This document shows positions 6,788 through 32,267 of a stretch of 64,000 nucleotides of DNA, piece after piece. Every line of letters starts with the position of its first letter. The first letter of the stretch is position 1. Made by a program: the position numbers and the translations under genes. The DNA lies in the NCBI RefSeq assembly GCF_014653945.1, contig NZ_BNAU01000002.1, positions 1,173,914 to 1,237,913 of the forward strand, in the 5' to 3' direction. The notes under the pieces were generated by a model. The model worked only from the letters and a program-made list of their open reading frames with translations, ran no database searches and was not told the origin of the DNA. The stretch comes from Amycolatopsis deserti (lineage in GTDB: Bacteria > Actinomycetota > Actinomycetes > Mycobacteriales > Pseudonocardiaceae).

Positions 6788-6824
6788 GAAATTAAATATA
6801 TTATGTCCTGCGAGCGCATGTCAA
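6788..6824 (-). promoter_or_regulatory. AT-rich box and putative promoter of the cupin operon
   Basis: An AT-rich 21-bp tract occupies 6788-6808; on the minus strand it contains ACATAATATAT. A TTGACA hexamer (minus strand, 6819-6824) lies about 10-20 bp upstream of it, so the box overlaps the likely -10 region. The same 11-mer ACATAATATAT recurs in the box at 24453-24473. Confidence 0.55.
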
Positions 6825-6884
6825 CGTCACCAGCCGACGGCACGCCGCCCGTCGAACTCGGCGAACTGCTGCCGCCGGCGCCGC

Positions 6885-7676
6885 TCAGGCGGGGTCGAAC
6901 TCAATCGTCGCCGGGTCGACCACCGCTCCCCCGCCGTCGGCGACGAGCACGTGCCCGGTCACGATCGAGGCGTCCGGTGAAGCGAGGAACGCGCACACCG
7001 ACGCGATCTCCGCCGGCTCGGCGACCCGGCGCAGCGGCACGTGCGCGGCGACGCGCTCGTAGGCCTGCTCCAGGGTGATCCCCTCGCGCTGGGCGAGGTA
7101 GGTCATCGCTCCCTCACCGAGCGGGGTGCGCACCCAGCCGGGGCACACCCCGTTCACGCGCACGCCCTTGGGCCCGTACTCGCGGGCCAGCCACCGCACC
7201 AGCCCGATCACCCCGGCCTTGGCGGCGCTGTAACCGGCGGTGCCGGGCGGGCCGGACAACAGCCCCGCCGTGGAGGCGATCATCACCAGCGATCCGCGGC
7301 GCCGCACCAGGTGCGGCATGACCTCGCCGGCCAGGAAGAAACCGCCGTGCAGGTTCACGTCGAACGCCGAGAACCACGCCGGGTCGCCCTTCGGGCTCGC
7401 CCCGCCGGAGATCGCGGCGCCCTGCGCGGCCACGACCGCGTCCAGCCCGCCCAGTTCCGCGACGGCCTGCTGCACCACCTCGTGCACGGCGTCGCGCTGG
7501 GTGCCGTCGGCGGGCAGTGCGAGGCCGCCGATTTCGTCGGCCACCTCCTTGAGCCGGTCGGCGTTGATGTCGGTGAGGGCGACCTTGGCCCCGTCCGCGG
7601 CGAAGCGGCGGGCCGTCGCCGAACCCACGCCCCCGGCGGCTCCGCTCACCAGGACCAGTTCCGGTTTCCTGCTCAT
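6885..7676 (-). CDS. SDR family oxidoreductase with variant NNAG motif
   Basis: 263 residues from ATG 7676. The Rossmann motif SGAAGGVG is at residues 11-18 and Asp36 marks NAD(H) preference. The catalytic set Ser135, Tyr149 and Lys153 (YSAAK) is intact. The usual NNAG is replaced by AAQG at 83-86, an uncommon change in a loop that steadies the central sheet. The start overlaps the acyl-CoA synthetase stop by 4 bp (ATGA), so it is the last gene of the long leftward operon 15677-6885. Likely role: oxidising a hydroxy intermediate or reducing a ketone; substrate unknown. Confidence 0.9.
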   Translation of the reverse strand: MSRKPELVLVSGAAGGVGSATARRFAADGAKVALTDINADRLKEVADEIGGLALPADGTQRDAVHEVVQQAVAELGGLDAVVAAQGAAISGGASPKGDPAWFSAFDVNLHGGFFLAGEVMPHLVRRRGSLVMIASTAGLLSGPPGTAGYSAAKAGVIGLVRWLAREYGPKGVRVNGVCPGWVRTPLGEGAMTYLAQREGITLEQAYERVAAHVPLRRVAEPAEIASVCAFLASPDASIVTGHVLVADGGGAVVDPATIEFDPA

Positions 7677-9259
7677 GTCGGCGTCTTCTCTCCGTTCAAT
7701 TCGGATTCGATGTGGGCGAACGCCTCGCGCAACCGGTACTTGAGGATCTTGCCGGAGGCGTTGCGGGGTAGCTCGTCCGAGATGAGGAAGTACTTGGGGA
7801 CCTTGTAGCCGGCCAGCCGTTCCCGGCAGAAGGCGCGCAGCGCGTCCGGTTCCGGCAGCTGCCCGGCCTCGGGCACCACGATCGCGCACCCGACCTCGCC
7901 GTAGCGGGAGTCCGGGACCGCGACGACCGCCGTCTCCAGCACCTGCGGGTGGGCCGCCAGGACCTTCTCCACCTCGGCCGGGTAGATGTTCTCCCCGCCG
8001 CTGCGGATCATGTCCTTGGCGCGGCCGGACAGGTGCAGGAAACCGTCGGCGTTGACGTACCCGAGGTCGCCCGTGCGGCACCACCCGTCGTGGAAGGTGG
8101 CGCGGGTGGCGTCCGGGCGGTTCCAGTACCCCTGGCTCACCGCCGGGGACCGGACCTCGATCTCGCCGACCTCGCCCGCCGCGGCCTCCCGGCCCTCCGG
8201 CGTGACGACCCGCGCCTGGGCGAGCGGCAGCGGGCGGCCGATGCTCTTCGGCTGGGCGAGGAAGTCCCGGTCCTCCAGCGTGGTGGCGATGGCGCCGCCC
8301 TCGGTGAGCCCGTAGACCTGGGTGAGCTTTACCTCCGGCAGCCGGCGCTTGACCTCCTCGGCGACCGAGGGCATGACCATGTCGCCGCCGAGGATGAACC
8401 GGCGCAGCGACGGCGGCAGCACCCGTTCCAGGTCGTCCCGGTGCAGCAGCTCGTTGAGCATGAACGGGAACAGCAGGCAGTCGGTCACCCGCTCCGCCCG
8501 CAACACCGCCAGCAGCCGGTCGACGGTGAAGTTCCCGGAGGGCAGGAAGACCGCCGTGCCGTGCATCAGCAGCGCCGGTGCGACGAACGCCTCGAACCCG
8601 CCGGCGTGGTACAGCGGACCCGGCACGAGCGAGACGGTCTCCTCGCCGAACTGCCACCGCAGCGCCTGCGCCGTCGCGATGGCCACGGTGTTGCCGTGAG
8701 TCCACACCGCACCTTTCGGGCTGCCGGTCGTGCCCGACGTGTAGAGCAGGCTCATCGGGTCGTCCCCGGTCACCTCGGGCAGCTCGTCCGGGGTGAGCGG
8801 CTCCGCCTCGCGGAACACCTCGAACGGCCGCGCCCAGTCCGGCACCGGGTCGCCCGAGTCGGGCAGCACCACGTACGTGCCCACGCCCGCCTGGTCGCGC
8901 ACCGGGTCGAGGCGGCCGGTCAGGCTGCTGTGGACGACGACCACGGAGGTCCCGGAATCGGCCAGGACGAACGCCAGCTCCGCCGGAGCGAGCCGGAAGT
9001 TCAGCCGGACGGTGATCACGCCCAGGCGCGCGGCCGCCAGGAACAGCGGCGGGTACTCCGCGTCGTTGAACAGCAGCAGACCGAGCCGGTCGCCCTTGCG
9101 CAGGCCCAGTTCCCGCAGCGCCCGCGCGTACCGCAGCGTCTTGTCGTGCAGTTCGCCGTAGGTGATCCGGTCCCGGCCGTCGAAGCTGAACGCGATCCGG
9201 TCCGGGCCCGCCGCCGGCACCCGGGCGATCACCGAGTCCAGGATCCAGCTGAAGTTCAT
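7673..9259 (-). CDS. Class I AMP-forming acyl-CoA synthetase
   Basis: 528 residues, typical of medium/long-chain or aryl acyl-CoA synthetases. The P-loop is LYTSGTTGSPKGAVWTHGN near residue 170. The motif QVYGLTEGGA and the hinge DLGYVNADGFLHLSGRAKDMIRS follow, and the catalytic lysine is near the C-terminus in NASGKILKYRLRE. The enzyme makes an acyl adenylate and then the CoA thioester. It overlaps the ALDH gene upstream and the SDR gene downstream by 4 bp each (ATGA). With the aldehyde dehydrogenase it could take an aldehyde to an acyl-CoA. It is clearly distinct from the PaaK-like ligase nearby. Confidence 0.92.
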   Translation of the reverse strand: MNFSWILDSVIARVPAAGPDRIAFSFDGRDRITYGELHDKTLRYARALRELGLRKGDRLGLLLFNDAEYPPLFLAAARLGVITVRLNFRLAPAELAFVLADSGTSVVVVHSSLTGRLDPVRDQAGVGTYVVLPDSGDPVPDWARPFEVFREAEPLTPDELPEVTGDDPMSLLYTSGTTGSPKGAVWTHGNTVAIATAQALRWQFGEETVSLVPGPLYHAGGFEAFVAPALLMHGTAVFLPSGNFTVDRLLAVLRAERVTDCLLFPFMLNELLHRDDLERVLPPSLRRFILGGDMVMPSVAEEVKRRLPEVKLTQVYGLTEGGAIATTLEDRDFLAQPKSIGRPLPLAQARVVTPEGREAAAGEVGEIEVRSPAVSQGYWNRPDATRATFHDGWCRTGDLGYVNADGFLHLSGRAKDMIRSGGENIYPAEVEKVLAAHPQVLETAVVAVPDSRYGEVGCAIVVPEAGQLPEPDALRAFCRERLAGYKVPKYFLISDELPRNASGKILKYRLREAFAHIESELNGEKTPT

Positions 9260-10728
9260 CCCGCACTCCCCGTTCCGCCGGAGGGGCCGAGCAGGATCTG
9301 CTTGAGCTCGGTGAACTCGCAGATCCCCTCCGGCCCGGCCTCGCGTCCCCAGCCCGACCCCTTCATCCCGCCGAACGGGGCGGTGAGCGCCGGGCCGAAC
9401 GCGTTGACCGCGACCGAGCCGGCCCGGATCCGGCGGGCGTAGGCGACGCCCTTGTCACGATCCGCCGTGTAGACGCTCGCGGCGAGGCCGTAGCTGGTGT
9501 CGTTCGCAAGGCGCAGGCCGTCCTCGTCGTCGCGGTAGGTCAGCACCGCCGTCACCGGCCCGAACACCTCGTTGCGGGCCAGGTCGGAGTCCCGCGCCAC
9601 GTCGGTCACGAGCGTCGGCTCGAAGTACCACCCGGCGTCGAACCCGGCAGGCCGCCGGCCACCCGCCACCACGCGCGCGCCGTCGGCCACGGCCCGCGCC
9701 ACGAACCCCTCGGCACGCTCGACCACCGAGGGCGCCGCCACCGGGCCGATCTGCGTGCGCGGGTCCAGCGGGTCCCCGATGCGCAGCCCCTCCCACGCCT
9801 GCCGCAGCAGCTCGACGACCTCGTCGTGGCGCCGCTCCGGCACGAGGATCCGGGACAGCGCGGCGCAGATCTGGCCGGCGCCGCTGGTCGCGCCGGGCAC
9901 CAGCGTCTTCAGCACGACCGTGAGGTCGGCGTCGTCGAGGATCAGCGCCGGGGACTTCCCGCCCAGCTCCAGGTGCGTGCGGGCGAACCGGTGGCGCGTG
10001 GACTCGATGATCTGCTGGGCGGCGGCCCGGCCGCCGGTGAGCGACACCATGTCGACGTGCGGGTTCGCGCTCAGCTCACGGCCGATCTCCACATCGCCGC
10101 AGAGGATGCTCAGCGCGCCGGCCGGGAACCCGGCGCCGGCCGCGCACTCGGCGATGATCCGCATGATCAGCTGCGACTCGACCGCCGCCTTCACCACCAC
10201 CGGGCAGCCCGCGAGCAGCGCGGGCAGCGCCTTGCTCGCCATCGTCACCAGCGGCCCGTTGTAGGCCATGATGGCGGCCACCACGCCCGCCGGCTCGCGG
10301 CGGACCACGACGTCGCCGAGCGCCGATCCGCGGACCGTGTCGCGCAGGATGTCCTCGGCGCTGTCCAGCAGGGTCCGCCACGCCCCCACCGCGGCGAAGC
10401 GGTGCAGGGTGCGGCTGTAGCGGACCGGCATCCCGGACTCGACCGCCCAGACCGTGCCCATGTCGTCCAGGCGCGCCTCCATGGCCGCGCAGAACCGGGC
10501 GCAGATCTCGACCCGGCCGGCCACGGGCATCTCCGCCCACGACGCCAGCCCGTCAGTGCGGGCGGCCTCGACCGCGGCCTGCGCGTGCTTGACCGAGGGC
10601 AGGCCGACCGTCGCGACCGGCCGCCCGGTGCTCGGCGAGACGATCCGGTACTCGCCGTCGGCAGGCACCCACTCCCCCGCCACGAACACCTCGTCGGCGT
10701 GCGGGACGGTCACCCCGGCGACGTCCAT
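9256..10728 (-). CDS. Aldehyde dehydrogenase family protein
   Basis: 490 residues from ATG 10728. Active-site residues are in place: the oxyanion Asn157 (MAYNGP), the general base Glu254 (THLELGGKSP) and nucleophile Cys288 (GAGQICAALSR). The C-terminal motif NEVFGPVTAVLTY is also visible. It oxidises an aldehyde to the acid with NAD(P)+. The start overlaps the stop of the EthD-like gene and the stop overlaps the start of the acyl-CoA synthetase (both ATGA), which is tight translational coupling. The product would be a ready substrate for the synthetase encoded next to it. Confidence 0.93.
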   Translation of the reverse strand: MDVAGVTVPHADEVFVAGEWVPADGEYRIVSPSTGRPVATVGLPSVKHAQAAVEAARTDGLASWAEMPVAGRVEICARFCAAMEARLDDMGTVWAVESGMPVRYSRTLHRFAAVGAWRTLLDSAEDILRDTVRGSALGDVVVRREPAGVVAAIMAYNGPLVTMASKALPALLAGCPVVVKAAVESQLIMRIIAECAAGAGFPAGALSILCGDVEIGRELSANPHVDMVSLTGGRAAAQQIIESTRHRFARTHLELGGKSPALILDDADLTVVLKTLVPGATSGAGQICAALSRILVPERRHDEVVELLRQAWEGLRIGDPLDPRTQIGPVAAPSVVERAEGFVARAVADGARVVAGGRRPAGFDAGWYFEPTLVTDVARDSDLARNEVFGPVTAVLTYRDDEDGLRLANDTSYGLAASVYTADRDKGVAYARRIRAGSVAVNAFGPALTAPFGGMKGSGWGREAGPEGICEFTELKQILLGPSGGTGSAG

Positions 10729-11456: not shown

Positions 11457-11491
11457 CGTCGATCCTCGTCGTCGTTGGGGTGCACCGGGTT

Positions 11492-13408: not shown

Positions 13409-13413
13409 GGGAC

Positions 13414-15453: not shown

Positions 15454-15467
15454 CGTCGGCTCCTCCG

Positions 15468-15819: not shown

Positions 15820-15836
15820 GAATATGATATATTCAA
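15820..15836. promoter_or_regulatory. AT-rich near-palindromic box between the carboxylase-like operon and the AraC gene
   Basis: The sequence GAATATGATATATTC (15820-15834) has GAATAT/ATATTC arms around a 3-bp centre. It lies in the divergent gap and could serve either promoter. It is one of about ten AT-rich boxes confined to 6.8-32.3 kb. Confidence 0.5.
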
Positions 15837-15867
15837 CGCCGGCACGACGGAGTGCGAGGAGGCAACC

Positions 15868-16839
15868 ATGCCCGACACCCAGGACGGCCAGGCTCCCCTC
15901 ACCTTCCACACGGACGACCTCGACATCGCGCGTGAGCAGGTGAGCCGGACCTTCGCCAGCCACGACGTCCACGTGGCGAACAGCCGGGACCTGAACTTCC
16001 GGCTCGAGCTCGCGCCGTCTCCGCGTCTGACCATCGGGCGGATGTCCTACGGCGCCGACACCACGATCCTCGGGCCGCCGATGCGGCTCTGCTACCACGT
16101 CAACCTGCCGGTGACGGGCCGGAGCACGGTCGAGCAGAACGGCGTTCGCCGGAGCTTCGTCGCCGGTGAGGCCGGCGTGGCGTTCGTCCCCCAGGCGCCG
16201 GTGATGGTGCAGTGGAGCGCCGATTCCTGGCAGTACCACGTCAAGCTGCCCAAGGACCTCCTCGAGGCGCACGCCGCCAAGCTCACCGGGCACACGGCGG
16301 GGGGCGAGATCCGCTTCGACCTCACGTTCGGGCTCGGTTCCGGTCCCGGCCAGGCCCTCGTCGCCACCGCGGGCTTTCTGTACGCCGAACTCACCCGTCC
16401 GGGTGGGATCGGGACGATCCCGGCCGCGTGCCACGAGCTGGAGTCCGCGTTGATGACCCAGCTGCTGATGACGCTGCCCAGCCAGATCAGCCCGGCCCTG
16501 CACAGCAAGCCCGCGCACACCCGGCTGTCGAAGATCCGCGAGGTCGTGGACTACATCGACAACCACCCCGGGGACGAGATCACCACGGCCGACCTCGCCG
16601 CGATGGCCGGGGTCAGCGCCCGCGCCCTGCAGGCCGGGTTCCAGGAGGTGGTCGGCATGTCCCCGACCGCGTACCTGCGCGGCGTCCGCCTGGACCGGGT
16701 GCACCTGGAGCTGCTCGGCGGCGCTCCCGGCACGGTCACCGAGATCGCGGCGCGGTGGGGCTTCTTCCACCCCGGCCGGTTCGCCCGCCAATACCGGGAG
16801 CGCTTCGGGCAACTACCCTCCGACACCGCCCGGCGATAA
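15868..16839 (+). CDS. AraC family transcriptional regulator
   Basis: 323 residues from ATG 15868, which has GAGGAGG 6 nt upstream. The N-terminal ~200 residues match the AraC-binding-like domain found before AraC HTHs (LSYHVNLPVTGRS-like barrel, VAGEAGVAFVPQ). Two C-terminal helix-turn-helices follow: ITTADLAAMAGVSARALQAGFQ and a second around GTVTEIAARWGFFHPGRFARQYRERFG. It is divergent from the zinc-ribbon/HyuA/HyuB operon, a classic arrangement for its activator. Its final codons are duplicated in the repeats that follow. Confidence 0.93.
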   Translation: MPDTQDGQAPLTFHTDDLDIAREQVSRTFASHDVHVANSRDLNFRLELAPSPRLTIGRMSYGADTTILGPPMRLCYHVNLPVTGRSTVEQNGVRRSFVAGEAGVAFVPQAPVMVQWSADSWQYHVKLPKDLLEAHAAKLTGHTAGGEIRFDLTFGLGSGPGQALVATAGFLYAELTRPGGIGTIPAACHELESALMTQLLMTLPSQISPALHSKPAHTRLSKIREVVDYIDNHPGDEITTADLAAMAGVSARALQAGFQEVVGMSPTAYLRGVRLDRVHLELLGGAPGTVTEIAARWGFFHPGRFARQYRERFGQLPSDTARR

Positions 16840-17150
16840 CCGGCGGTCAGGCCGAGCGGTCCCCCAGCCCCCGCGCCGCGGCCGACCACTCTGGAACGCA
16901 GTAGGACCTCCACCCGGCCACTCCACCGGGAACGCTTCGGGCAACTGCCCTCCCACACCACCCGACGATCACGCACGCTCAGACCGAGCGGCCCCCAGCC
17001 CACGCACCGCAGCCGACCACTCTGGAACGCAGTAGGACCTCCACCCGGCCACTCGGACACCACCCGCCCGATGACCCGCGGTCAGGCCGAGCGGTCCCCC
17101 AGCCCCCGCGCCTCCGACCACTCGTGGACCAGCTTGCGCAGGTCCAGCTC
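16797..17150. repeat. Imperfect tandem repeats copying the 3' ends of both flanking genes
   Basis: Two and a half copies of a ~132-bp unit. Each full copy starts with the AraC 3' end (GCTTCGGGCAACT) and continues into the 3' end of the convergent CoA-transferase gene (CCGAGCGGTCCCCCAGCCC). Copies start near 16797 and 16929. A shortened third copy from ~17055 merges into the real CoA-transferase end. The segment GACCACTCTGGAACGCAGTA is identical in the first two. The 242-bp gap between the genes contains nothing else. Confidence 0.85.
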
Positions 17151-18533
17151 GTCCGCCGACGGCGCCTGGGGCTCGCGGGCCGGTGTCCGGCTGAACCGGG
17201 GCGCCGGGCGCGGGTGCAGCACGTCGCCGACCCGGGTGAACACCCCGCGCCCGGCGTTGTGCGGGTGGTCGGCCGCCTCGTCGAAGGTCAGCACCGGGGT
17301 CACGCACGCGTCGGTGCCCGCGTAGATCTCCACCCATTCGTCGCGGGACTTGCGCGCCAGGGCGGCGGCGATCAGCTGCCGCAACCGGGGCCAGGCGTCC
17401 CGGTCGTCCTGTGCGGGCCAGTCCTCCGTGCCGACGCCGAGCCGGGCCACGAACTCCCGGTAGAAGTCGGGTTCGAGAGCCCCGACCGCCAGGTAACGCC
17501 CGTCGGCGCACCGGTAGGTGTCGTAGAACGGCGCGCCCGAGTCCAGGTAGTTGGTGCCCGGGTCGTCGCTGTAGCGTCCGGCCGCCCGCAGGCCCTGGAT
17601 CTTCGCCGTCAGCAGCGCGACCCCGTCGACCATCGCGGCGTCGACCACCTGGCCACGCCCCGAGGACCGCGCCTCCAGCACCGCGCACACGATGCCGTAC
17701 GCCGCGACCAGCGCCCCGCCCGCGTAGTCGCCGAGCAGGTTGATCGGCGGCCGCGGAGCCTCGCCGGCCCGCGCCATCGCGTGCAGCGCACCGGTCTGCG
17801 CCACGTAGTTGATGTCGTGACCCGCCTCGCGCGCGAGCGGACCGGTCTGGCCGTAGCCGGTCAGCCGCGCGTAGACGATCGCCGGATTGCGCCGCAGCAG
17901 CACCTCCGGTCCGAGCCCGAGGCGTTCGGCCACCCCGGGCCGGTAGCCCTCGATGAACACGTCCGCGGCGCCGGCCAGGCGCAGCACGTCCTCGACGCCC
18001 TCGGCACTCTTCAGATCCGCCGCGACGGCCCCGACGCCCCGGTTGGCGAGGTCGTGCTCGGGGCGCAGCCCGTCGGTCTGGCCGAGGGCGCGGGCGCGCC
18101 GGTTCGGCGGACGCGTGACCCGCACGACCTCCGCGCCCATGTCCGCCAGGAGCATGCTCGCGAAGGGCGTCGGACCCATCCCCGCCAACGCGACGACCCG
18201 CACCCCGGACAAGGGCCCGCCCACGGGCGCTTCCTCACGACCTGGGTGCGGCCCGCCCACCGGGCCGTCCTCACGGCCAGCGTGCAGCCCACCCACCGGG
18301 GCGTCCTCGCGGCCAGCGTGCAGCCCACCCACCGGGCCGTCCTCACGGCCAGCGTGCAGCCCACCCACCGGGGCGTCCTCACGGCCAGCGTGCAGCCCAC
18401 CCACCGGGGCGTCCTCACGGCCAGCGTGCAGCCCACCCACCGGAGCGCCCTCACCACCGGCGTACGACCCGCCCACCGGAGCATCCTCGCAGCTGGCGCC
18501 CCCCTCGCGACGGGCGTGCGGTTCGGGCGTCAT
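17082..18533 (-). CDS. CaiB/BaiF (family III) CoA-transferase with N-terminal 12-residue repeats
   Basis: 483 residues from ATG 18533. The family III domain starts near residue 102 with GPLSGVRVVALAGMGPTPFASMLLADMGAEVVRVTRP, the form seen in alpha-methylacyl-CoA racemases. It includes RYLAVGALEPDFYREF and EIYAGTDACVTPVLTFDEA, also typical of that branch. The family transfers CoA between acids or epimerises 2-methylacyl-CoA. Ahead of the domain lie seven copies of a 12-residue unit like APVGGLHAGRED. These are absent from family members, which start close to the GPLSG motif. The true start could therefore be further downstream. An AT-rich box precedes it. Confidence 0.88.
   Translation of the reverse strand: MTPEPHARREGGASCEDAPVGGSYAGGEGAPVGGLHAGREDAPVGGLHAGREDAPVGGLHAGREDGPVGGLHAGREDAPVGGLHAGREDGPVGGPHPGREEAPVGGPLSGVRVVALAGMGPTPFASMLLADMGAEVVRVTRPPNRRARALGQTDGLRPEHDLANRGVGAVAADLKSAEGVEDVLRLAGAADVFIEGYRPGVAERLGLGPEVLLRRNPAIVYARLTGYGQTGPLAREAGHDINYVAQTGALHAMARAGEAPRPPINLLGDYAGGALVAAYGIVCAVLEARSSGRGQVVDAAMVDGVALLTAKIQGLRAAGRYSDDPGTNYLDSGAPFYDTYRCADGRYLAVGALEPDFYREFVARLGVGTEDWPAQDDRDAWPRLRQLIAAALARKSRDEWVEIYAGTDACVTPVLTFDEAADHPHNAGRGVFTRVGDVLHPRPAPRFSRTPAREPQAPSADELDLRKLVHEWSEARGLGDRSA
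18195..18482 (-). repeat. 36-bp in-frame minisatellite
   Basis: Seven 36-bp units (18231-18482) encode APVGG(LHAGRED)-type dodecapeptides, and an eighth diverged unit (18195-18230) encodes APVGGPLSGVRV, the start of the CoA-transferase domain. Units 2, 3, 4 and 6 are identical in protein; units 5 and 7 start with Gly. The reading frame is kept throughout. Confidence 0.9.
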
Positions 18534-18584
18534 CGTCTGCTCCCTCGCGGTGTCGTCCTGCGTCAAAGCGCCATGCTCGTGCAC

Positions 18585-18603
18585 GAAATATAATATTGTC
18601 AAC
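18585..18603. promoter_or_regulatory. AT-rich box, CoA-transferase side of the divergent gap
   Basis: GAAATATAATATTGTCAAC resembles the other AT-rich boxes of this region. On the minus strand it begins with GTTGACA, a possible -35 element, 52 bp or more ahead of the CoA-transferase start. Confidence 0.5.
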
Positions 18604-18625
18604 CGATGTACCAGGGCTTCCAGCC

Positions 18626-18646
18626 TTGACATATGAAATTTCATGC
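18626..18646. promoter_or_regulatory. TTGACA element with ATGAAATTTCAT palindrome, MFS side
   Basis: A TTGACA hexamer (18626-18631) is followed at once by the perfect 12-bp palindrome ATGAAATTTCAT (18633-18644). It is about 70 bp upstream of the MFS start. The palindrome would cover the spacer of a promoter read rightwards, an operator-like position. Confidence 0.5.
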
Positions 18647-18713
18647 ACGATCGTTCCTTCTATCGGGCGGCTCCGCCCGCTCCCCACCCCCAACACCGTG
18701 AGAGAGGTGTCCA

Positions 18714-20576: not shown

Positions 20577-20616
20577 GAATTTTTTATATTTTATGGAGGT
20601 AAGCGGTAAGGGTCAA
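20577..20616 (-). promoter_or_regulatory. AT-rich box and promoter of the small winged-helix-like gene
   Basis: On the minus strand TTGACC (20611-20616) is followed after exactly 17 bp by TAAAAT (20588-20593). This is a near-consensus sigma-70 type promoter. The -10 lies inside the AT-rich tract 20577-20596, one of the repeated boxes of the region. Confidence 0.65.
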
Positions 20617-21592: not shown

Positions 21593-21753
21593 GGCTGAAG
21601 TCACCTCCGGGTGACGGGTCTGGGATCTCGTGCGGGTGCCGGTTCGCAGCACCCGTGGTTCCACGGTCTCCGATCCGGCCGGACGGGAGAAGGACCAACG
21701 TCATCCCAGGACAGAACCGTCCCCCTCAGCGGCGGGAGGCCGGCCAACATCGC

Positions 21754-21772
21754 GTATTGAGTATGATGTATC
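21754..21772. promoter_or_regulatory. AT-rich box between the hydrolase and GntR genes
   Basis: GTATTGAGTATGATGTATC, about 55 bp before the GntR start. On the minus strand it reads GATACATCATACTC; its GATACAT segment recurs in the box at 24453-24473 (GATACATAATAT). This is weaker than the other boxes but in an autoregulatory position. Confidence 0.45.
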
Positions 21773-21827: not shown

Positions 21828-22529
21828 ATGACGGAGAACGTGATGCCGATGCGCGGACGAGGGCCGGCCAGGCAGCAACTGCCCGAGGAAGTGGCTTCGT
21901 ACGTGCGGGAGCTGATCATCTCGGGCGAGGTGCGGCCGGGCGAGTTCCTCCGGCTCGAGCCCATCGCGGAAGCCGTCGGAGTGAGCAACACCCCGGTGCG
22001 CGAGGGTCTGCTGTCACTGCGCAGCGAGGGGTTCGTCGAACTGGTCCCGCGCCGCGGGTTCGTGGTCGCGCCGTTCAGCGAACAGGACGTGCGGGACCTG
22101 TTCTGGACGCAGGCTCAGCTCGCCGGCGAGCTGACCGCCCGCGCCGCTCGCAAGATCACCGCGGACGGGCTGGCGCGCCTGGAGGCCAACGTCGACGAGT
22201 TCATGAAGGCGCTCGCCGAGGGACGCGAGGACCGGGTGGCCGAAATCGGTCACCAGTTCCACCGGGAGATCAACCTCGCAGCCGACTCGCACCGACTGGC
22301 CAGGTTGCTGAACTCCGTGGTCAAGCACCTGCCGAACCGCTTCTACGCCGAGATCGAAGGCACCGTGACGGGCAGCCAGGAGGCCCATCCGCTCATCCTC
22401 GAGGCCATTCGCAAGCGTGCCGCGCGGAAGGCGCAGTCGCTGATGGCCGAGCACATCCTCGACAGCGGCGAACACCTGGTCGAGATGTTGCGCAAGCGCG
22501 GGGTGTGGGCCGAGACCTCCAGCGCCTGA
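21828..22529 (+). CDS. GntR family transcriptional regulator (FadR/FCD subfamily)
   Basis: 233 residues from ATG 21828. The winged HTH spans residues ~15-80: LPEEVASYVRELIISGEVRPGEFLRLEPIAEAVGVSNTPVREGLLSLRSEGFVELVPRRGFVVAPFSEQD. An all-helical FCD ligand-binding domain follows, with the metal-binding Asp/His pattern in EIGHQFHREINLAADSHRL. FCD regulators bind organic-acid or acyl-CoA effectors and short AT-containing palindromes. It is a strong candidate for the regulator of the AT-rich boxes around it, including one ahead of its own gene. That link is inference. Confidence 0.92.
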   Translation: MTENVMPMRGRGPARQQLPEEVASYVRELIISGEVRPGEFLRLEPIAEAVGVSNTPVREGLLSLRSEGFVELVPRRGFVVAPFSEQDVRDLFWTQAQLAGELTARAARKITADGLARLEANVDEFMKALAEGREDRVAEIGHQFHREINLAADSHRLARLLNSVVKHLPNRFYAEIEGTVTGSQEAHPLILEAIRKRAARKAQSLMAEHILDSGEHLVEMLRKRGVWAETSSA

Positions 22530-23430: not shown

Positions 23431-23512
23431 GTCGTCCAGTGTGGCGGATGCCAGGGCGCCACGGGAGGGAAGAACCTCTCCCCCGTTCGACTGTCACACT
23501 CAACAGACCCAG

Positions 23513-23535
23513 GAATACTTAATATTTTTGGTATC
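23513..23535. promoter_or_regulatory. AT-rich box between the XRE gene and the alpha/beta hydrolase
   Basis: The 23-bp tract begins GAATACTTAATATTTTTGG and ends GTATC; ATAC/GTAT arms flank an AT core. It is 33 bp upstream of the hydrolase start, so it covers or abuts that promoter's -10 region. Confidence 0.5.
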
Positions 23536-23567
23536 ATCCGAGTGAAGTCGACACACGGGAGGCGGCG

Positions 23568-24431: not shown

Positions 24432-24452
24432 TCGGCCGACCTTTCCGCGCTT

Positions 24453-24473
24453 TGATACATAATATATAGTATG
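24453..24473 (+). promoter_or_regulatory. AT-rich box upstream of the second CoA-transferase
   Basis: The 21-bp tract starts TGATACATAATATATAGTA; GATAC/GTAT arms make it near-palindromic. It lies 46 bp before the CoA-transferase start. It shares ACATAATATAT exactly with the box of the cupin operon. Confidence 0.55.
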
Positions 24474-24519
24474 GCAGGCCGTCACCCTCAGTCCTGCACC
24501 CGAACGCGAGGTCACCGCA

Positions 24520-25743
24520 GTGAGCGCAGCGAACCCGAGCAGCACCCCGAACCCCGCCCCGCTCGCCGGACTGCGGATAGTGGAACTGTCGAGCTACGTG
24601 GCGACGCCCCTGTGCGGGATGACGCTCGCCCAGCTGGGCGCCGACGTGATCCGGGTGGAGCCGCTCGGCGGTGCGGCCGACCGGACCCGGCTGCCGTTGG
24701 CGCCGACCGGCACGAGCCTCTACTGGACGGGCCTGAACAAGGGCAAGCGGGCGATCGCGGTGAACCTGTCCGCACCGGCAGGCAAGGATCTCGTCGCCCG
24801 TCTGGCGGCCGAACGTGGAATCGTGCTCACGAACTCCGAACGGGTCGTGTCACCGGCGGATCTGCGCGCGCGACGTCCCGATCTCATCCACGTCCTGCTC
24901 ACCGGTCGCCAGGACGGTGGTTCGGCCGTCGACTACACCGTGAACGCCGAGTGCGGGTTCCCGCTGGCCACCGGCCCCGCGGGCGGCGACTCGCCGGTGA
25001 ACCACCTGCTGCCGGCCTGGGACGTCGCGGCCGGGCTGTACCTGGCGGTCGGCCTGCTCAGCGCGGTCCGCGAACACGCGCGGACCGGCCGGCCGCAGAA
25101 CGTGCGCGTCGCGCTGGAAGACGTCGCCCTCGGCGTCACGGGCAACCTGGGTTACCTCGCCCAGGCCCAGATCACCGGCGAAGCACGCGAGCCGGACGGC
25201 AACTTCGTCTACGGCACCTTCGGCAAGGACTTCCTCACCGCGGACGGCATCCGGGTCATGGTCGTCGCGCTCACCCCGCGGCACTGGCGCGACCTGGTCG
25301 CCATGACCGAATCCGCCGAGGTGATCAAGGCGATCGAGACCTCTCGGTCGGCCGATTTCGACGACGAGGGCGACCGGTACCGCCATCGGCACCTCCTGGC
25401 GGCGGTGCTGGGCGACTGGTTCGCGACGCGCCCCTACGCGGAGGTGGCAGCCGCCTTGAGCGAGACCCGCGTCGTCTGGTCGCGGTTCCGCACCTTCACC
25501 GAACTCGCCTCCTCCGGCCTCCTGCGCGACAACCCCCTGTTCAACGAGCTGGACCAGCCGGGCGTGGGGCGCCACCTCGCTCCTGGATCGCCGCTGGTCG
25601 TCGGTGACAACCGGGCGCCGGCGGTGCCCGCGCCCGCGGTCGGCGAGCACACCCACGAGCTGCTGCGCGAGGAGATCGGGCTGGACGAGCGCGACATCGA
25701 CCGGCTGGTCCGCGAAGGCGTCATCGAACCGCGCGGCGCCTGA
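24520..25743 (+). CDS. CaiB/BaiF (family III) CoA-transferase
   Basis: 407 residues from GTG 24520, with a weak GAGGT upstream. The family III start motif APLAGLRIVELSSYVATPLCGMTLAQLGADVIRVEPLGG is at residues 10-50. NKGKRAIAVNLSAPAGKDLV, then TYGTFGKDFLTADG-like and SRFRTFTEL segments follow. The catalytic Asp usually found at about position 170 is not evident to me: this stretch (VNAECGFPLATGPAG) differs from the canonical form. The mesaconyl-CoA C1-C4 transferase and 2-methylfumaryl-CoA branch is a possible relative. CoA donor and acceptor are unknown. It is likely a single-gene unit ending at a strong hairpin. Confidence 0.88.
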   Translation: MSAANPSSTPNPAPLAGLRIVELSSYVATPLCGMTLAQLGADVIRVEPLGGAADRTRLPLAPTGTSLYWTGLNKGKRAIAVNLSAPAGKDLVARLAAERGIVLTNSERVVSPADLRARRPDLIHVLLTGRQDGGSAVDYTVNAECGFPLATGPAGGDSPVNHLLPAWDVAAGLYLAVGLLSAVREHARTGRPQNVRVALEDVALGVTGNLGYLAQAQITGEAREPDGNFVYGTFGKDFLTADGIRVMVVALTPRHWRDLVAMTESAEVIKAIETSRSADFDDEGDRYRHRHLLAAVLGDWFATRPYAEVAAALSETRVVWSRFRTFTELASSGLLRDNPLFNELDQPGVGRHLAPGSPLVVGDNRAPAVPAPAVGEHTHELLREEIGLDERDIDRLVREGVIEPRGA

Positions 25744-25746
25744 GAC

Positions 25747-25784
25747 GGCCGGGGCCCGGCCCGGCGTGAGGACGGGCCCCGGCC
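25747..25784. terminator. Terminator hairpin between convergent genes
   Basis: A 12-bp perfect stem (GGCCGGGGCCCG at 25747-25758 with 25773-25784) and a 14-nt loop, between a CoA-transferase and the MmgE/PrpD gene. Confidence 0.75.
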
Positions 25785-25791
25785 GGGCGGG

Positions 25792-27186: not shown

Positions 27187-27252
27187 GGGCTTCTCACTTT
27201 CCTTCGCAACGCACCACGCGCTGGTGCGGTGACGTACCGATGTGTGGAACAG

Positions 27253-28677
27253 CTACCGGGGCGGGCGCACGCAGTCCATGAGCGTGCTGACGTCCGCCAC
27301 CGCCTCCAGTCCGAGGACCGCGTCGACCACGGCCGCCACGTTCGATTCGGGCAGGACGCCGTCGGCGTTGTGCCGGAACTTGGCGACCAGGTCCTCGGTC
27401 GTCATCCGCGTGGCGGGGTCGGGCGACGGCACGCCCTTGGGGTAGCTGCGCTCCCCGACGAACGTCTTCCCGCGCGCGGTCACCTCGACCCGGGACGGGC
27501 GCGCCGCGGGGTGGCCGCTGATCGCCGACACGTAGTCCGCGTGCGGCTCGTAGGACACCTTCTCCATCAGCTCGAGGACCGACCGGCTGTGCACCAGTTC
27601 CGGGTCCAGCCAGTCCCTGCCCGGCGGTACCCGGTGCGCCCCCACCGCGAGCCCGTGCGCGATGCTGAACTCGGCGTCCCGGGGTTCGGCGATCGTGCGG
27701 TTGAGCCACACGGGCTGCTGCACGAACGGCTCCCCCCACGTCTTGATGGAGTCGATCTCCTCCGGCGCGAGGTCGTGGGTCTCGACGATCTCGCGCAGCG
27801 CGTCGAGCGGGGCGTGCAGGATCCGGCAGTGCGGGTACGGTTTGTAGGCCTGTTCGGTGACGAACTTCCAGTCGCTGCCCAGATCGGCAGTGATCCGCTC
27901 GGGTTCCCAGCGGGTGGTGCCGATGAAGCGCGGCCAGCCGAACTCCGCGTCGTCGAGGATCCGCAGATCGCCGCGGTGCCCGAACTCGGCCAGGTGCGCG
28001 GCGGTCAGCGCCGTCTGCGGGAGGGTCCCCGCGAGCATGTACTTGATCGTCGTGCTCGGCGTGTGCATCATCCACGCCCGCATGGCGTTGACCGGGGCGG
28101 TGCTGGCCGCGATGCCCAGTGCGTGGGCCAGCGTCTCCTCGGACAGTCCCTTCACCATCGCGACCGCGGCGGTCGCGCCGAACACCGTGCTGCTGTACCC
28201 GTAGACCGGCGGGATCGTGACCTCGCCGTCCTTGATGTCGCGCAGGTAGTCGGTCGCCTTGCCGATCCGGTACGACATCTCGTGCGCCACAGCCAGTGCC
28301 GCGATCAGGTCCTTCCCCGGCCGGTGGCCCGCTTCGGCCACGGCCAGGGCACCGGGCACCACGTACGGGGTGACGTGACCCGGCGGGACGACGGCGTCCA
28401 TGTCGAGGGCGTTGACGAGGTCGGCGTTGGCGAACGCGGCGCCGAAGATCGAGACCTTGTCGGCGGTACCGATCAGCGTGGCGTCGCCGCTCGCGCCGCC
28501 GAGCAGCGACGCGAACTCGATGGCCTTGCGCGCACCGGGTTCGGCCACCGCGGCCAGCGCGCATCCGAGCGAGTCCAGCAGGATCCGCTTGCACTCCTCG
28601 ACCACGTCGTCCGGCAGGGCCGCGAACCCGCTGCGGCTGCTGAACTCGGCCAGGCGCTCGACGAGGGTCTGGGACAT
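27253..28677 (-). CDS. MmgE/PrpD family protein (second paralogue)
   Basis: 474 residues. Family stretches: ILLDSLGCALAAVAEPGARKAIEFA, AAFANADLVNALDMDAVVPPGHVTPYVVPGALAVAE, AVAHEMSYRIGKATDYL, AYKPYPHCRILHAPLDALREI and SAISGHPAARPSRVEVTARG. The KPYPHC motif is closer to the canonical PrpD pattern than in the downstream paralogue, so the two have diverged. It is the first gene of the leftward MmgE pair and carries the AT-rich box just upstream. Possible activities include dehydration or decarboxylation of a branched tricarboxylate; unproven. Confidence 0.9.
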   Translation of the reverse strand: MSQTLVERLAEFSSRSGFAALPDDVVEECKRILLDSLGCALAAVAEPGARKAIEFASLLGGASGDATLIGTADKVSIFGAAFANADLVNALDMDAVVPPGHVTPYVVPGALAVAEAGHRPGKDLIAALAVAHEMSYRIGKATDYLRDIKDGEVTIPPVYGYSSTVFGATAAVAMVKGLSEETLAHALGIAASTAPVNAMRAWMMHTPSTTIKYMLAGTLPQTALTAAHLAEFGHRGDLRILDDAEFGWPRFIGTTRWEPERITADLGSDWKFVTEQAYKPYPHCRILHAPLDALREIVETHDLAPEEIDSIKTWGEPFVQQPVWLNRTIAEPRDAEFSIAHGLAVGAHRVPPGRDWLDPELVHSRSVLELMEKVSYEPHADYVSAISGHPAARPSRVEVTARGKTFVGERSYPKGVPSPDPATRMTTEDLVAKFRHNADGVLPESNVAAVVDAVLGLEAVADVSTLMDCVRPPR

Positions 28678-28691
28678 CGCTTCTCCGTTCT

Positions 28692-28720
28692 CACATTAAT
28701 ATATTTTATGTAAACTCAAC
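28692..28720 (-). promoter_or_regulatory. AT-rich box upstream of the MmgE/PrpD operon
   Basis: The tract CACATTAATATATTTTATG (from 28692) runs to 28715. On the minus strand it reads ACATAAAATATATTAATG after a GTTGAG hexamer (28715-28720). It starts 15 bp upstream of the second MmgE/PrpD start, very close for a promoter. TAAAATATATT is shared with the box at 29046-29069. Confidence 0.55.
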
Positions 28721-28833
28721 CCGGGGTGACTGTCAAGGGATGGCGGCCGCCGGCGGATCCACGAGCCGGCTCACGATGGCGAGAAGTTCCCCGGCGGAGC
28801 TCGCCCGGGACGACTCAGGATGACGCCAAGGCC

Positions 28834-28983
28834 CCCGCAGGGCTCCCCGGCAGGGCTCCCCGGCAGGGCTCCCCGACAGGGCTCCCCAGCGGGGCTCCCC
28901 AGCGGGACTACCCGGTGGGGCTCCCAGTGGGACTTCCCGGTGGGGCTCCCCGGCAGGGATCCCCGGCAGGGCTTCCCCACGGG
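28834..28983. repeat. 13-bp minisatellite in the MmgE / CoA-transferase divergent gap
   Basis: About 11 imperfect copies of GGCAGGGCTCCCC; the first copies are nearly identical and later ones drift to GGTGGGGCTCCC and GGTGGGACTTCCC. As 13 is not a multiple of three it is not coding. It fills most of the 427-bp gap between 28678 and 29104, whose two ends carry AT-rich boxes. Confidence 0.85.
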
Positions 28984-29045
28984 AGCTCGCCGACGACCCG
29001 CGTCGCACACCGCGGCGGCGGCGCAGGGTGGCCACCCTTGTCGCT

Positions 29046-29069
29046 GAAATATATTTTACTTAGTATTGC
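29046..29069 (+). promoter_or_regulatory. AT-rich box upstream of the third CoA-transferase
   Basis: GAAATATATTTTACTTAG (from 29046) continues to 29069. It lies 35 bp before the start codon and shares AATATATTTTA with the box on the other side of the same divergent gap. Confidence 0.55.
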
Positions 29070-29104
29070 TGACGAGCGTACTTCTCATCGGAGCGAGGTC
29101 CACC

Positions 29105-30277
29105 ATGCAGCACAAGCCGCTCACGGGCATCAGGATCCTGGAGATCGGCGGGTACATCTCCCTTCCCTACGGCACCTCACTCCTGTGCGCGCTGGGAGCC
29201 GAGGTCGTCAAGGTCGAGAAACCGGGAGACGGTGAGGACTTCCGGCGCCGGGACAACAACCGCAGCGTGTACTTCATCCAGGTGAACGCGGGCAAGCGCA
29301 GCCTGGCCGTCGACCTGAAGCGCCCGGAGGGTGTGGCGCTGGTGAAGAAGCTGATCCCACGGTTCGACGTGGTCCTGGAGAACATGCGGCCCGGCAAGCT
29401 GGCCGCGCTCGGGCTCGGGCCGGACGACTGCCGCGCCCTGCGGCCGGACCTGGTCTACGGATCGGTGACCGGGTTCGGCAGCGGCGGGCCGCTCGCCTCA
29501 CGCCCGGCCTACGACACGATCGGCCACGCCTTCGGGGGCCTCTACTCCCTGTTCAGCGATGCCGGGAACTACCAGCTCGCGGGCGGGCTCTGCGCCGACC
29601 TCGTCACCGGCCTCGCCACCGCGACCGGCGTGCTCGCCGCCCTGGTCGGTCGCGCTTCATCGGGCACCGGACAACACGTCGAGACCTCGATCATGGAGGC
29701 GGTCAGCACGCTGACCACCGACGCCATCACGCAGTACTTCGAGACCGGGACCGACCCGGACCGGCAGAGCAGGCATCCGCAGGCCCAGAACTTCTGCGTC
29801 AAGACCGCCTCGGGCGAGTTCCTCGCGCTCCACCTGTCGTCGTCGCAGAAGTTCTGGCGGTCGCTGTGCGCCGCGATGAGCCGGCCGGACCTCCCCGAGG
29901 ACCCGCGGTTCGCCGAGTTCCGCCACCGCGAGCGGAACTACTTCGAGCTGGTGAAGATCGTGGAGGCCGAGTTCGCCACGAAACCGAAGGACGAGTGGGA
30001 GAAGCGGCTCACCGAGTACGACGTCCCGTTCGCGCCGGTGCTGACCATGTCCGGCTACATCGAGCACCCGCAGGTGAAATGGCTCGATCTGATCGAGCCG
30101 GAGCGGAACGGCGTATCGCTGGTCCGGCCTCCCTGGCGGTTCGAGGGGGCCCGCCCGGAGCGTGGTGGCGACGCCCCCCGCGTCGGGCAGCACAGCCGCG
30201 AGGTCGCGTCCGAGATCTGTGACGACGCCGAGATCGACGAGCTCGTCGCGGCCGGCGTGTTGTACGTGGAGTCCTGA
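29105..30277 (+). CDS. CaiB/BaiF (family III) CoA-transferase
   Basis: 390 residues from ATG 29105, with GCGAGG upstream; an in-frame earlier ATG at 29066 would overlap the AT-rich box. The family III N-terminus KPLTGIRILEIGGYISLPYGTSLLCALGAEVVKVEKPGDGEDFR is present. So are VNAGKRSLAVDLKRPEGVAL and SVTGFGSGGPLASRPAYDTIGHAFGG, whose Asp in AYD is the usual catalytic aspartate. It is convergent with a CitE-like lyase/dehydratase pair. Such CoA-transferases activate itaconate, mesaconate or oxalate using succinyl-CoA or another donor. The context favours a C5-branched acid, by inference. Confidence 0.92.
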   Translation: MQHKPLTGIRILEIGGYISLPYGTSLLCALGAEVVKVEKPGDGEDFRRRDNNRSVYFIQVNAGKRSLAVDLKRPEGVALVKKLIPRFDVVLENMRPGKLAALGLGPDDCRALRPDLVYGSVTGFGSGGPLASRPAYDTIGHAFGGLYSLFSDAGNYQLAGGLCADLVTGLATATGVLAALVGRASSGTGQHVETSIMEAVSTLTTDAITQYFETGTDPDRQSRHPQAQNFCVKTASGEFLALHLSSSQKFWRSLCAAMSRPDLPEDPRFAEFRHRERNYFELVKIVEAEFATKPKDEWEKRLTEYDVPFAPVLTMSGYIEHPQVKWLDLIEPERNGVSLVRPPWRFEGARPERGGDAPRVGQHSREVASEICDDAEIDELVAAGVLYVES

Positions 30278-30281
30278 GGGC

Positions 30282-30317
30282 GGGGCGAGCATCGAGGGCT
30301 TCCTCGATGCTCGCCCC
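30282..30317. terminator. Terminator hairpin between convergent genes
   Basis: A perfect 16-bp stem (GGGGCGAGCATCGAGG at 30282-30297 with 30302-30317) and a 4-nt loop, located 4 bp after the CoA-transferase stop and 5 bp before the end of the CitE-like gene. Confidence 0.85.
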
Positions 30318-30322
30318 TGCGG

Positions 30323-31111
30323 CTACGCCCGGGCCAGGATCGCCTGGGCGCGCAGGATCACCGGACGGTCCACCATCTGACCGTTGTGGACGGCGACCGA
30401 CCCGTCGGTCACCGAAGCCAGCACCTCCTCGGCCCACCGGATCTCGGCTTCCGTCGGGGTGAAGGCGGCGTTCACCGGGCCCGCCTGGCGGGGGTGGATG
30501 CAGAGCTTGCCGGTGAACCCGAGCTCGATCGCGTGCTCCAGGTCGGCGCGCAGCACTGCCTCGTCGTCCAGGGCGGTGGTGACCCCGTCGATCGGGGCGC
30601 CGCGTCCGGCCGCCGCGGCGGCGAGCACCACCGCCGACCGCGCGTGCCGCAGCGCGGCGTGCGAGCGGTGGTCGACACCGATCTGCGCCGCCAGATCGAT
30701 GCTGCCGAACGCGGGCCGCACGACCGGGTCCGCGGCACACACCTCGGCGGCGAGCAACACCCCCGTCGCCGTCTCGATCAGCGGGATCACTTCGGTACCC
30801 GACCGGTCCGCGACCAGGTTCAGCACCGCCCGGTCCTCGGCCTTGGGCACCATCACGGCGCGAGCCCGCCCCGCGACCGCGGTGAGGTCGTCGGAGAACC
30901 ACGGCGTTCCGGATCCGTTGATCCGGACCACGGCCTCATGCCCATCCGCCAGCCAGGACCGGACGTGCTCCCGGGCTTCCGCCTTGCTCTCGGGACCGAC
31001 GGCGTCCTCCAGGTCCAGCACGACCACGTCGGCACCGGAGGCGGCAGCCTTGGCGAACCGGTCCGGCCGGTGGCCGGGCACGAACAGGAAACTCCTCGCA
31101 CTTGTCAGCAT
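30323..31111 (-). CDS. CitE-like CoA ester lyase (HpcH/HpaI family)
   Basis: 262 residues from ATG 31111, shorter than the ~290 of many CitE-like proteins. Signature segments: ARSFLFVPGHRPDRFAKAAASGADVVVLDLEDAVGPESKAEAR with the Mg-binding acidic cluster, VRINGSGTPWFSDDL, MVPKAEDRAVL, IETATGVLLAAEVC and AFGSIDLAAQIG, plus KLCIHPRQAGPVNAAF. These enzymes cleave malyl-, citramalyl- or beta-methylmalyl-CoA. The start overlaps the stop of the FAS1-like dehydratase gene by 4 bp (ATGA). The pair would hydrate an unsaturated C5-CoA and split it to pyruvate or glyoxylate plus an acyl-CoA. Confidence 0.92.
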   Translation of the reverse strand: MLTSARSFLFVPGHRPDRFAKAAASGADVVVLDLEDAVGPESKAEAREHVRSWLADGHEAVVRINGSGTPWFSDDLTAVAGRARAVMVPKAEDRAVLNLVADRSGTEVIPLIETATGVLLAAEVCAADPVVRPAFGSIDLAAQIGVDHRSHAALRHARSAVVLAAAAAGRGAPIDGVTTALDDEAVLRADLEHAIELGFTGKLCIHPRQAGPVNAAFTPTEAEIRWAEEVLASVTDGSVAVHNGQMVDRPVILRAQAILARA

Positions 31112-31932
31112 CAGGCGCTCCGGACCGTTCCAGTCGCCGTCCGGCGGCCGTAGATGTCCCGCACCGAAGTGGTGGTCCGGTCCCCCTCCGGCACCGCGCC
31201 GGCCACCATCCCCTGGTGGTCGAACAGGGGCGAGACCAGACGGTAGTCGAACACCAGGTCGCCGCCGCAGCCGGCGGCACGCGCGACTTCGGCCATCGCC
31301 AGCGCCTGGAGCGGGCCGTGGGTCAGCAGCCCGGGATAGCCCTCGGTGTCGCGGGCGTAGTCCCGGTCGTAGTGGATGCGGTGCGCGTTGTAGGTCAGCG
31401 CCGAGAAGCGGAACAGCAACGTCGGCGACACCTCGATCGCCCACTCACCGGGCCCGGGAGGAACCACCTCCCCCTCTTCCGTCTCGGACGCGGCACCCGA
31501 GGTCGCCGGCCGATAGACGATGTCCTGCTGCTCGTCCACCACGATCCGGCCGTCCTGCTCGATCAGGTGCTCGACGACGACGAACGTGAGCGGCCCCGTC
31601 CGGCCCTGCTTGTCCTGAACCGACAGCACCCGGGTGCGCCGCGTCGCGGGCACGCCGCACCGCAGTGCCCCTCGAGTACGAACCCGGCCACCGGCCCACA
31701 TCCGGCGGCGACCCGGCCCGGGGGGCGCCGGGACACAGTTGCGCGCCGGGTGCCCGTCCGGTCCCAGATCGGCCTGCGCGGGCCGTTCCAGCAGGTACAG
31801 CCAGTGCCACAGCGGCGGCAACCCCTCACCGCCGTCGAGGTCGGGAACCGGGACGTCGAGCAGCGCGCCCAGCGCCAATGCGGGCCCGGGTAGCAGGAGC
31901 TCGGTGCGTTCGACGATGTCTGCTGACGACAT
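31111..31932 (-). CDS. FAS1-like / MaoC-type dehydratase (mesaconyl-C4-CoA hydratase-like)
   Basis: 273 residues from ATG 31932, which follows GAGGAAGGTC; the ATG at 31944 lacks an SD. It is a double hot-dog protein. The N-terminal half is the FAS1-like dehydratase domain (LPPLWHWLYLLERPAQADLGPDGHP). The C-terminal half carries the hydratase motif RFSALTYNAHRIHYDRDYARDTEGYPGLLTHGPLQALAM, a form shared with mesaconyl-C4-CoA hydratase and itaconyl-CoA hydratase. It is translationally coupled to the CitE-like lyase. Predicted reaction: addition of water to a mesaconyl-, itaconyl- or methylfumaryl-type CoA ester. Confidence 0.87.
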   Translation of the reverse strand: MSSADIVERTELLLPGPALALGALLDVPVPDLDGGEGLPPLWHWLYLLERPAQADLGPDGHPARNCVPAPPGPGRRRMWAGGRVRTRGALRCGVPATRRTRVLSVQDKQGRTGPLTFVVVEHLIEQDGRIVVDEQQDIVYRPATSGAASETEEGEVVPPGPGEWAIEVSPTLLFRFSALTYNAHRIHYDRDYARDTEGYPGLLTHGPLQALAMAEVARAAGCGGDLVFDYRLVSPLFDHQGMVAGAVPEGDRTTTSVRDIYGRRTATGTVRSA

Positions 31933-32252
31933 GACCTTCCTCATCGGATCTTGTGACAGTTGACGAGAGATGGCGGACGACGGCGTGTCCCGGCCGGATC
32001 GTTCCCGAGCGCCGCCGAGCGGAGTCCACATCGGTCGTGTCGGAGCCACTCACGGCACGCTCGCTGTCGCGTCTCGGTGGCTCAACCCTATTCTCCGGAA
32101 TTCAGGTGGAGTAGTTAGACCCGTCACAAGTGGTCTCGGACGCCCGGGTCGCGGGCCCGCCGGCGCACTCGTCCACGATTACTGCGTCAACCGGTGGGAG
32201 TTCGGCTCCGGCCGCGTCGGCGGGTTTGCCCCTCGCTTGCCTCATCCCTTTA
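31933..32252. other. Intergenic stretch without recognisable genes
   Basis: About 320 bp upstream of the dehydratase gene. It has lower GC than the flanks in its middle (around 32070-32120), with no coding sequence, hairpin or repeat I can support. The promoter of the leftward dehydratase/lyase pair must lie in its left part. Confidence 0.5.
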
Positions 32253-32267
32253 GAAATATTTTATACC
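32253..32267 (+). promoter_or_regulatory. AT-rich box upstream of the dienelactone hydrolase remnant
   Basis: GAAATATTTTATACC, the right-most of the AT-rich boxes, 14 bp ahead of the surviving hydrolase reading frame. It suggests the decayed gene once belonged to the same regulon, or that a deletion joined a regulon promoter to the gene fragment. Confidence 0.45.

Follow-up and report, generated by a model that had tools for sequence, protein, structure and literature searches.

Which protein reads the AT-rich boxes that recur in front of degradation genes in a GC-rich actinobacterial genome is the question raised by a 64,000-nucleotide stretch of Amycolatopsis deserti DNA, referred to here as the window (C2:1173914-1237913, C2 being contig NZ_BNAU01000002.1). 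The window has a GC content of 71.8% and belongs to a genome of 7.74 Mb in 24 contigs. An initial annotation had listed AT-rich tracts at 11 positions in its promoter gaps and ascribed them to one regulon. The boxes are very probably operators of the GntR/FCD regulator encoded at 21828-22529 (GntR#2), which would through them control a horizontally transferred degradation island.

A palindromic box array

At a threshold of at least 14 A/T per 20 positions, the window holds 11 clusters, 10 at the positions noted earlier and one at 52716, which has no motif match with either the window-trained matrix or the independent matrix described below. The tract at 21754 is weaker and falls below this threshold, yet it fits the motif, as do all 11 listed positions. 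Their shared consensus was correctly recognized, but a palindrome, about ACATAATATATTATGT, is a better description than the asymmetric form first proposed. The exact cores reported for some boxes were found again: ACATAATATAT occurs twice in the whole genome, in the boxes at 6788 and 24453, and AATATATTTTA (the reverse complement of TAAAATATATT) is found in those at 28692 and 29046.

Pattern searches covered the whole 7.74 Mb, and matrix scans 1.22 Mb. Genome-wide, runs of 14 A/T occupy 13 positions in six distinct tracts, five of which lie in C2:1160187-1202622. The 13-mer ATAATATATTTTA, with up to three mismatches, gave 33 matches at 19 distinct sites, 16 in C2:1134992-1206177 and three anywhere else in the genome. 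The boxes are real, far beyond chance. Their array extends about 39 kb beyond the left end of the window, with eight further sites there, and no site of at least 14 bits was found in the 93 kb to its right with the window-trained matrix. The earlier remark that 32.3-64 kb carries no equivalent is upheld by this result, and the lack of boxes there follows from the end of the island beside a tRNA-Val gene. That almost every promoter gap carries a box holds for 15-32 kb but not for 1-15 kb, which has one box.

Two other members of the genus (G016 and G018) carry the island, and 18 of the 19 sites could be compared in each. Differences amount to 22 of 360 site positions vs 164 of 1440 flanking positions in G016 and to 31 of 360 vs 184 of 1440 in G018, so that the boxes vary less than their flanks between island carriers. 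The box at 20577 has seven and four changed letters in G016 and G018, respectively, and still reaches 25.1 and 23.1 bits. G018 has lost site C2:1144138, and the box at 32247 is without counterpart in either genome.

A GntR/FCD regulator linked to the boxes across genera

By sequence and structural model, GntR#2 is assigned to the FCD (FadR) subfamily of the GntR superfamily and is VanR-like. In Pfam, the longer open reading frame (ORF) 21630-22529 matches the GntR domain PF00392 (54.6 bits, cut-off 27; 8.3e-15) and the FCD domain PF07729 (62.1 bits, cut-off 24.3; 9.1e-17). The structure predicted from 12 input sequences (mean predicted local distance difference test score, pLDDT, 82.9; predicted template modeling score, pTM, 0.76) has a helix-helix-helix-strand-strand N-terminus, a winged helix, and an all-helical C-terminal FCD domain, and its top Foldseek matches are GntR/FCD proteins. 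H145, H187, and H209, candidates for the metal-site histidines that FCD domains conserve, are present in all 19 aligned proteins of a set of 12 clade members, three outgroups, and four GntR#1 proteins, GntR#1 being a second island GntR/FCD protein (C2:1170969-1171700, about 2.2 kb left of the window).

Relatives of GntR#2 were collected by a profile scan of contigs with a 12-sequence alignment, in which the best 80 of 84 relatives correspond to 73 loci, mostly actinobacterial; flanks of up to 10 kb on each side were fetched for neighborhood searches. De novo expectation maximization (EM) was run on regions of 340 bp (320 upstream and 20 inside the gene), picked by the regulator gene irrespective of AT content, from the 63 loci left after removal of 10 near-duplicates. 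It recovered the palindromic 16-mer acatnATATATnatgt with an estimated occupancy of 0.87, and for a palindromic 20-mer the log-likelihood gain was 310 vs 40.8 and 40.1 in two shuffles. This EM and an independent matrix, trained on 55 non-Amycolatopsis regulator upstreams, constitute the unbiased motif evidence, an earlier EM having used preselected AT-rich tracts. When 1.22 Mb of the A. deserti genome was searched with the independent matrix, the top 12 places were all island boxes. At 16 bits or more, it found 18 sites in the 80 kb island vs four in the remaining 1.14 Mb, and at 14 bits or more, 19 (11 in the window and eight to its left) vs nine. The best matches outside the island score 20.8 and 16.2 bits (L072, the locus of a GntR paralogue), 18.3 (L156), and 16.0 (C2:1061217). 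The initial annotation's proposal of a single regulon, with the GntR/FCD protein as regulator, gains support from both the cross-genus EM and the independent matrix.

A site of at least 12 bits lies within 400 bp upstream of the regulator in 62 of the 73 loci, most of which helped train the matrix. The GntR#2 neighborhoods (1.39 Mb) hold 305 sites of at least 16 bits vs 6, 6, and 3 in three shuffles. With the independent matrix, no site of at least 14 bits was found in L069-L071, where GntR#1 is present and GntR#2 absent, nor in L073-L075, which encode FCD relatives about 46% identical. In a check of 25 genomes, 10 (G108, G115, G118, G126, G128, G145, G148, G174, G353, and G357) have a close GntR#2 relative (58-73% identity) no more than 20 kb from an exact box match, and in G120 the relative is on a different contig from the match; six genomes with one exact match each (G149, G385, G068, G084, G196, and G217) showed no close relative in this check. 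The exact 12-mer is present in 20 of 390 genomes of the family, among them three of the 19 from the genus, and only three genomes have at least five matches. This survey under-counts: G001 and G002 score zero although both encode the regulator and have boxes that have diverged.

In each of these two genomes, four GntR#2 copies stand within about 20 kb (L056-L059) with diverged boxes near, and one copy each was reported by the search with an internal stop. The regulator was also met, at 51-54% identity, in four metagenome bins labeled as two Ramlibacter, Comamonadaceae, and Proteobacteria (L141, L143, L145, and L147), with one to three motif matches each plus relatives of island enzymes. The sequences of these bins suggest cross-phylum transfer, bin contamination being possible.

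Boxes at promoters and a proposed mode of control

For nine genes in the window, the nearest start codon follows the box center by 24-67 bp, and two boxes are centered 76 and 126 bp before a transporter gene of the major facilitator superfamily (MFS). In these distances, the ORF at 29066 was taken from ATG 29105, and the start of ORF 17082-18644 is uncertain; the latter, the longest ORF of a CoA-transferase III, encloses the box at 18579..18598. Several of the boxes to the left of the window reach the first codons of the longest ORF, whose starts are probably over-called there. Among the 305 neighborhood sites, 232 stand at -60 to 150 bp of an ORF start. The proposal of an operator over the -10 holds insofar as the boxes overlap the few sigma-70-like -10 elements: the first 33 kb contain four sigma-70-like matches (shuffle means 0.6 and 0.5), all overlapping boxes and three oriented as the nearby gene. 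This fits a polymerase-blocking repressor but is weak evidence, as AT-rich boxes resemble -10 elements anyway.

Two GntR#2 subunits would bind one such palindrome near or over the core promoter and would most likely repress at least a dozen organic-acid and acyl-CoA degradation promoters, that of GntR#2 itself included. A pathway acid or CoA ester binding the FCD domain might then release the protein, and regulator and operators would travel jointly on the horizontally moved island. For this large degradation island, and for related enzyme sets in many soil actinobacteria, the analysis predicts the regulator, its operator, and the genes under its control.

Counter-evidence and alternative regulators

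Several observations weigh against GntR#2 as the predicted binder of the boxes. Eleven of the 73 regulator upstreams are without a site of at least 12 bits within 400 bp, and nine loci are without a match of at least 17 bits with the window-trained matrix. The same matrix gives matches beside the regulators of outgroup loci L073 (21.0 bits) and L075 (17.0) and, in 120 kb of non-island sequence from this genome, three matches of at least 14 bits (best 22.2), while the independent matrix finds three sites at the paralogue locus L072. Five box-bearing loci (L048, L050, L051, L060, and L066) have no GntR#2 within 20 kb; an adjoining contig stretch supplies it for all except L051, which comes from L050's genome on another contig. 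GT-N2-3-AC is present in 3 of 19 island boxes and 41 of 305 sites, and 68 of the 305 lie deep within ORFs, as do 70% of bases by the crude gene finder used. GntR#2's own operator is among the weaker ones (Table 1). In addition, the GntR#1 promoter itself carries boxes, which may serve both proteins.

That GntR#1 is the main binder, or that both paralogues share the boxes, is the alternative with most to be said for it, though still unlikely; sharing would be compatible with operators of GntR#2. GntR#1 sits in the island with boxes on either side, its relatives adjoin boxes in L049, L052, L053, and L054, and L060 and L066 combine GntR#1 and three sites each with absence of GntR#2 from the same 20 kb. 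An ATACTTTRTC-like element upstream of its relatives also resembles the GATAC/GTAT arms of the boxes. However, GntR#1 relatives (at least 50% identity) occur in only five of the 73 GntR#2 neighborhoods, within the fetched flanks, and L069, L070, and L071 have GntR#1 and no sites. By these counts GntR#1 is disfavored as sole master, and so are the LuxR-GAF and MmyB-like proteins. Together with the AraC-type protein (15868), the initial annotation's other candidate, these two are each encoded near a box within the island, but relatives of at least 35% identity appear, within the fetched flanks of up to 10 kb, in only nine (AraC), seven (LuxR-GAF), and nine (MmyB-like) of the 73 loci. AraC-type sites are usually direct repeats, unlike the palindromic box, and it is very improbable that any of the three is the regulator. 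The AraC gene is likely a target rather than the master regulator; a similar box precedes AraC relatives in L049, L052, L053, and L054.

Two further explanations dispense with a dedicated operator. Promoter elements of a dedicated sigma factor could account for the overlap with sigma-70-like matches, but the motif is symmetric, its conserved partner is a GntR protein, and a Pfam scan of part of the island's ORFs gave no match to a sigma-factor family; the idea is hardly credible. Even less so is Lsr2-like silencing, or AT richness as no more than a mark of foreign DNA. The tracts are AT-rich and the cluster is horizontally transferred, to which extent the earlier suggestion of foreign DNA was right, but this leaves the shared palindrome unexplained. 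The tracts span about 20 bp, are recovered by a matrix from other genera, track one regulator, and are better conserved than their flanks. Extended AT-rich DNA with GC below that of the genome, as expected for Lsr2, was not found: island GC is 70-73% per 10 kb, the same as its surroundings.

As a side observation, the ATACTTTRTC-like element was seen by eye to be common to L069, L070, L071, L060, and L066, upstream of GntR#1 relatives, in the forms GATACTTTGTC, AATACTTCATCC, and AATACTTTATCAG. It is perhaps the GntR#1 operator and the source of the GATAC/GTAT arms.

A probable A/T-only operator and its candidate recognition residue

The core of 261 distinct sites of at least 18 bits reads T-N-A-T-A-T-A-T-N-A. 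At the place of the canonical G, A is present in 84% and G in 7%, values that describe the motif rather than test it independently, since the sites were matrix-picked. TKGT-N2-3-ACMA, the usual FCD-subfamily core, occurs in none of the 19 island boxes or the 305 sites. According to PMC4494728, this core is usual, not defining, for the FadR subfamily, with NanR and BioR as exceptions, and Asn and Gln tend to prefer A. Among the aligned proteins, position 54 is Asn in all 12 clade members, Lys in all four GntR#1 proteins, and Pro, Pro, and Arg in the three outgroups.

One of the closest known systems is Atu1419 of Agrobacterium fabrum (VanR group, FCD family, PDB 6z74/6za3), the first Foldseek match of GntR#2 by E-value and one of its three PDB sequence matches at 1e-10 or better. 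As described in PMC7797058, Atu1419 likewise combines a winged helix with an FCD domain, its palindrome overlaps the -10, and Arg45 reads an essential G of the operator ATGTATACAT, where a G to A change abolished binding. GntR#2 has Asn54 opposite residue 45 of the Atu1419 chain, and the boxes have A:T at the corresponding pair, two differences from Atu1419. AlkR of Pseudomonas aeruginosa (VanR group, PDB 9isw), also among the Foldseek matches, is presented in PMC12042122 as an FCD repressor of a degradation gene whose palindrome covers the -10 regions and which long-chain acyl-CoA releases. Its operator ATTGTCAGACAAT retains the GT...AC core, unlike the boxes, and it is described there for one main target, whereas the boxes form an island-wide array. 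BioR, set beside GntR#2 by operator only, is a FadR-subfamily protein whose palindrome TTATMKATAA is also without the common core, with a half-site that differs from the boxes (PMC4494728). No description of the motif or regulon was found in the open-licence literature searched, which is a weak negative.

The operator can be viewed as the FCD core T-N-G-T-N2-A-C-N-A with its G:C pairs turned to A:T, and an Arg-to-Asn change at the G-reading residue would fit such an operator and may have caused the base-pair change. We consider it somewhat probable that, in an FCD clade of Actinobacteria and perhaps Betaproteobacteria, this one recognition-helix change switched the code to T-N-A-T-N2-A-T-N-A. 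The result would be an insulated, movable regulon, because an A/T-only operator seldom arises by chance in 70% GC genomes. The clade may offer a natural example of coupled change in a transcription-factor family, in which a single residue and a single base pair have shifted jointly, and its A/T-only code hints at how such a regulon might function immediately on entering a new GC-rich host.

The island and its edges

The island encodes coenzyme A (CoA) transferases, acyl-CoA dehydrogenases, CoA ligases, a CitE-like lyase, and MmgE/PrpD proteins, along with hydantoinase A/B proteins, short-chain dehydrogenases/reductases, aldehyde dehydrogenases, and transporters. Its regulators are the two GntR/FCD proteins and the AraC, LuxR-GAF, and MmyB-like proteins. 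In NCBIfam, none of 10 island proteins submitted reached a curated cut-off; the product of 24520-25743 is 2-methylfumaryl-CoA isomerase-like (378 bits, below the cut-off of 725). These NCBIfam matches tentatively suggest the CoA chemistry of branched C5 acids.

Sequence comparison identifies the cluster as a tRNA-associated, horizontally moved genomic island of about 80 kb. The exact box array is carried by two of 18 other genus members, G016 and G018, with which collinear pieces are shared at 92-98% identity (the longest 45 and 47 kb at 98.1% and 97.7%, respectively). Here lepA adjoins the array, while lepA and island lie at 0.41 and 6.6 Mb in G016 and at 4.24 and 3.26 Mb in G018. The lepA identity to the window's genome is 95% (G016) and 94% (G018), and G008 and G015 have a closer lepA (96% and 97%), yet no exact box matches. 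Synteny with all four relatives compared begins at window 32832-32847, beside the tRNA-Val gene, and no island DNA was found in 20-40 kb around their lepA; G015 has about 18 kb in place of about 82 kb here (C2:1124955-1206760). The part shared with G016 and G018 ends at 30279-30381, which places the box at 32247 outside it, and regulon membership is least certain for this box.

Table 1. Boxes, regulators, and the right edge of the island, in window coordinates.
Feature	Position	Strand	Remarks
GntR#2, GntR/FCD regulator	21828..22529	+	P0002, 233 aa; proposed box binder; Pfam, structure match, motif upstream of relatives
Box, GntR#2 own promoter	21752..21771	+	18.9 bits; center 66 bp before ATG
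Box before cupin / PaaK-like genes	6789..6808	-	28.8 bits; overlapped by TTGACA-18-TATATT
Box before AraC gene	15820..15839	+	21.8 bits
Box 1 between CoA-transferase III and MFS transporter	18579..18598	-	20.2 bits
Box 2 between CoA-transferase III and MFS transporter	18629..18648	+	19.7 bits
Box before 90-aa ORF	20577..20596	-	22.8 bits; overlapped by TTGACC-17-TAAAAT
Box before alpha/beta hydrolase	23515..23534	+	23.4 bits; 94 bp from MmyB-like regulator start
Box before CoA-transferase III (2-methylfumaryl-CoA isomerase-like)	24455..24474	+	28.7 bits
Box before MmgE/PrpD gene	28692..28711	-	23.2 bits
Box before CoA-transferase III	29049..29068	+	20.8 bits; ~46 bp before in-frame ATG 29105
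Weakest window box	32247..32266	+	16.1 bits; beyond island part shared with two genomes
AraC-type regulator	15868..16839	+	
tRNA-Val (CAC)	32917..32990	-	Right edge of island

Near this edge, the gene at 31111-32049 may be part of a native type of locus and not of the island. In L073, L074, and L075, an FCD relative (about 46% identity) stands near a relative (77-79%) of its protein.

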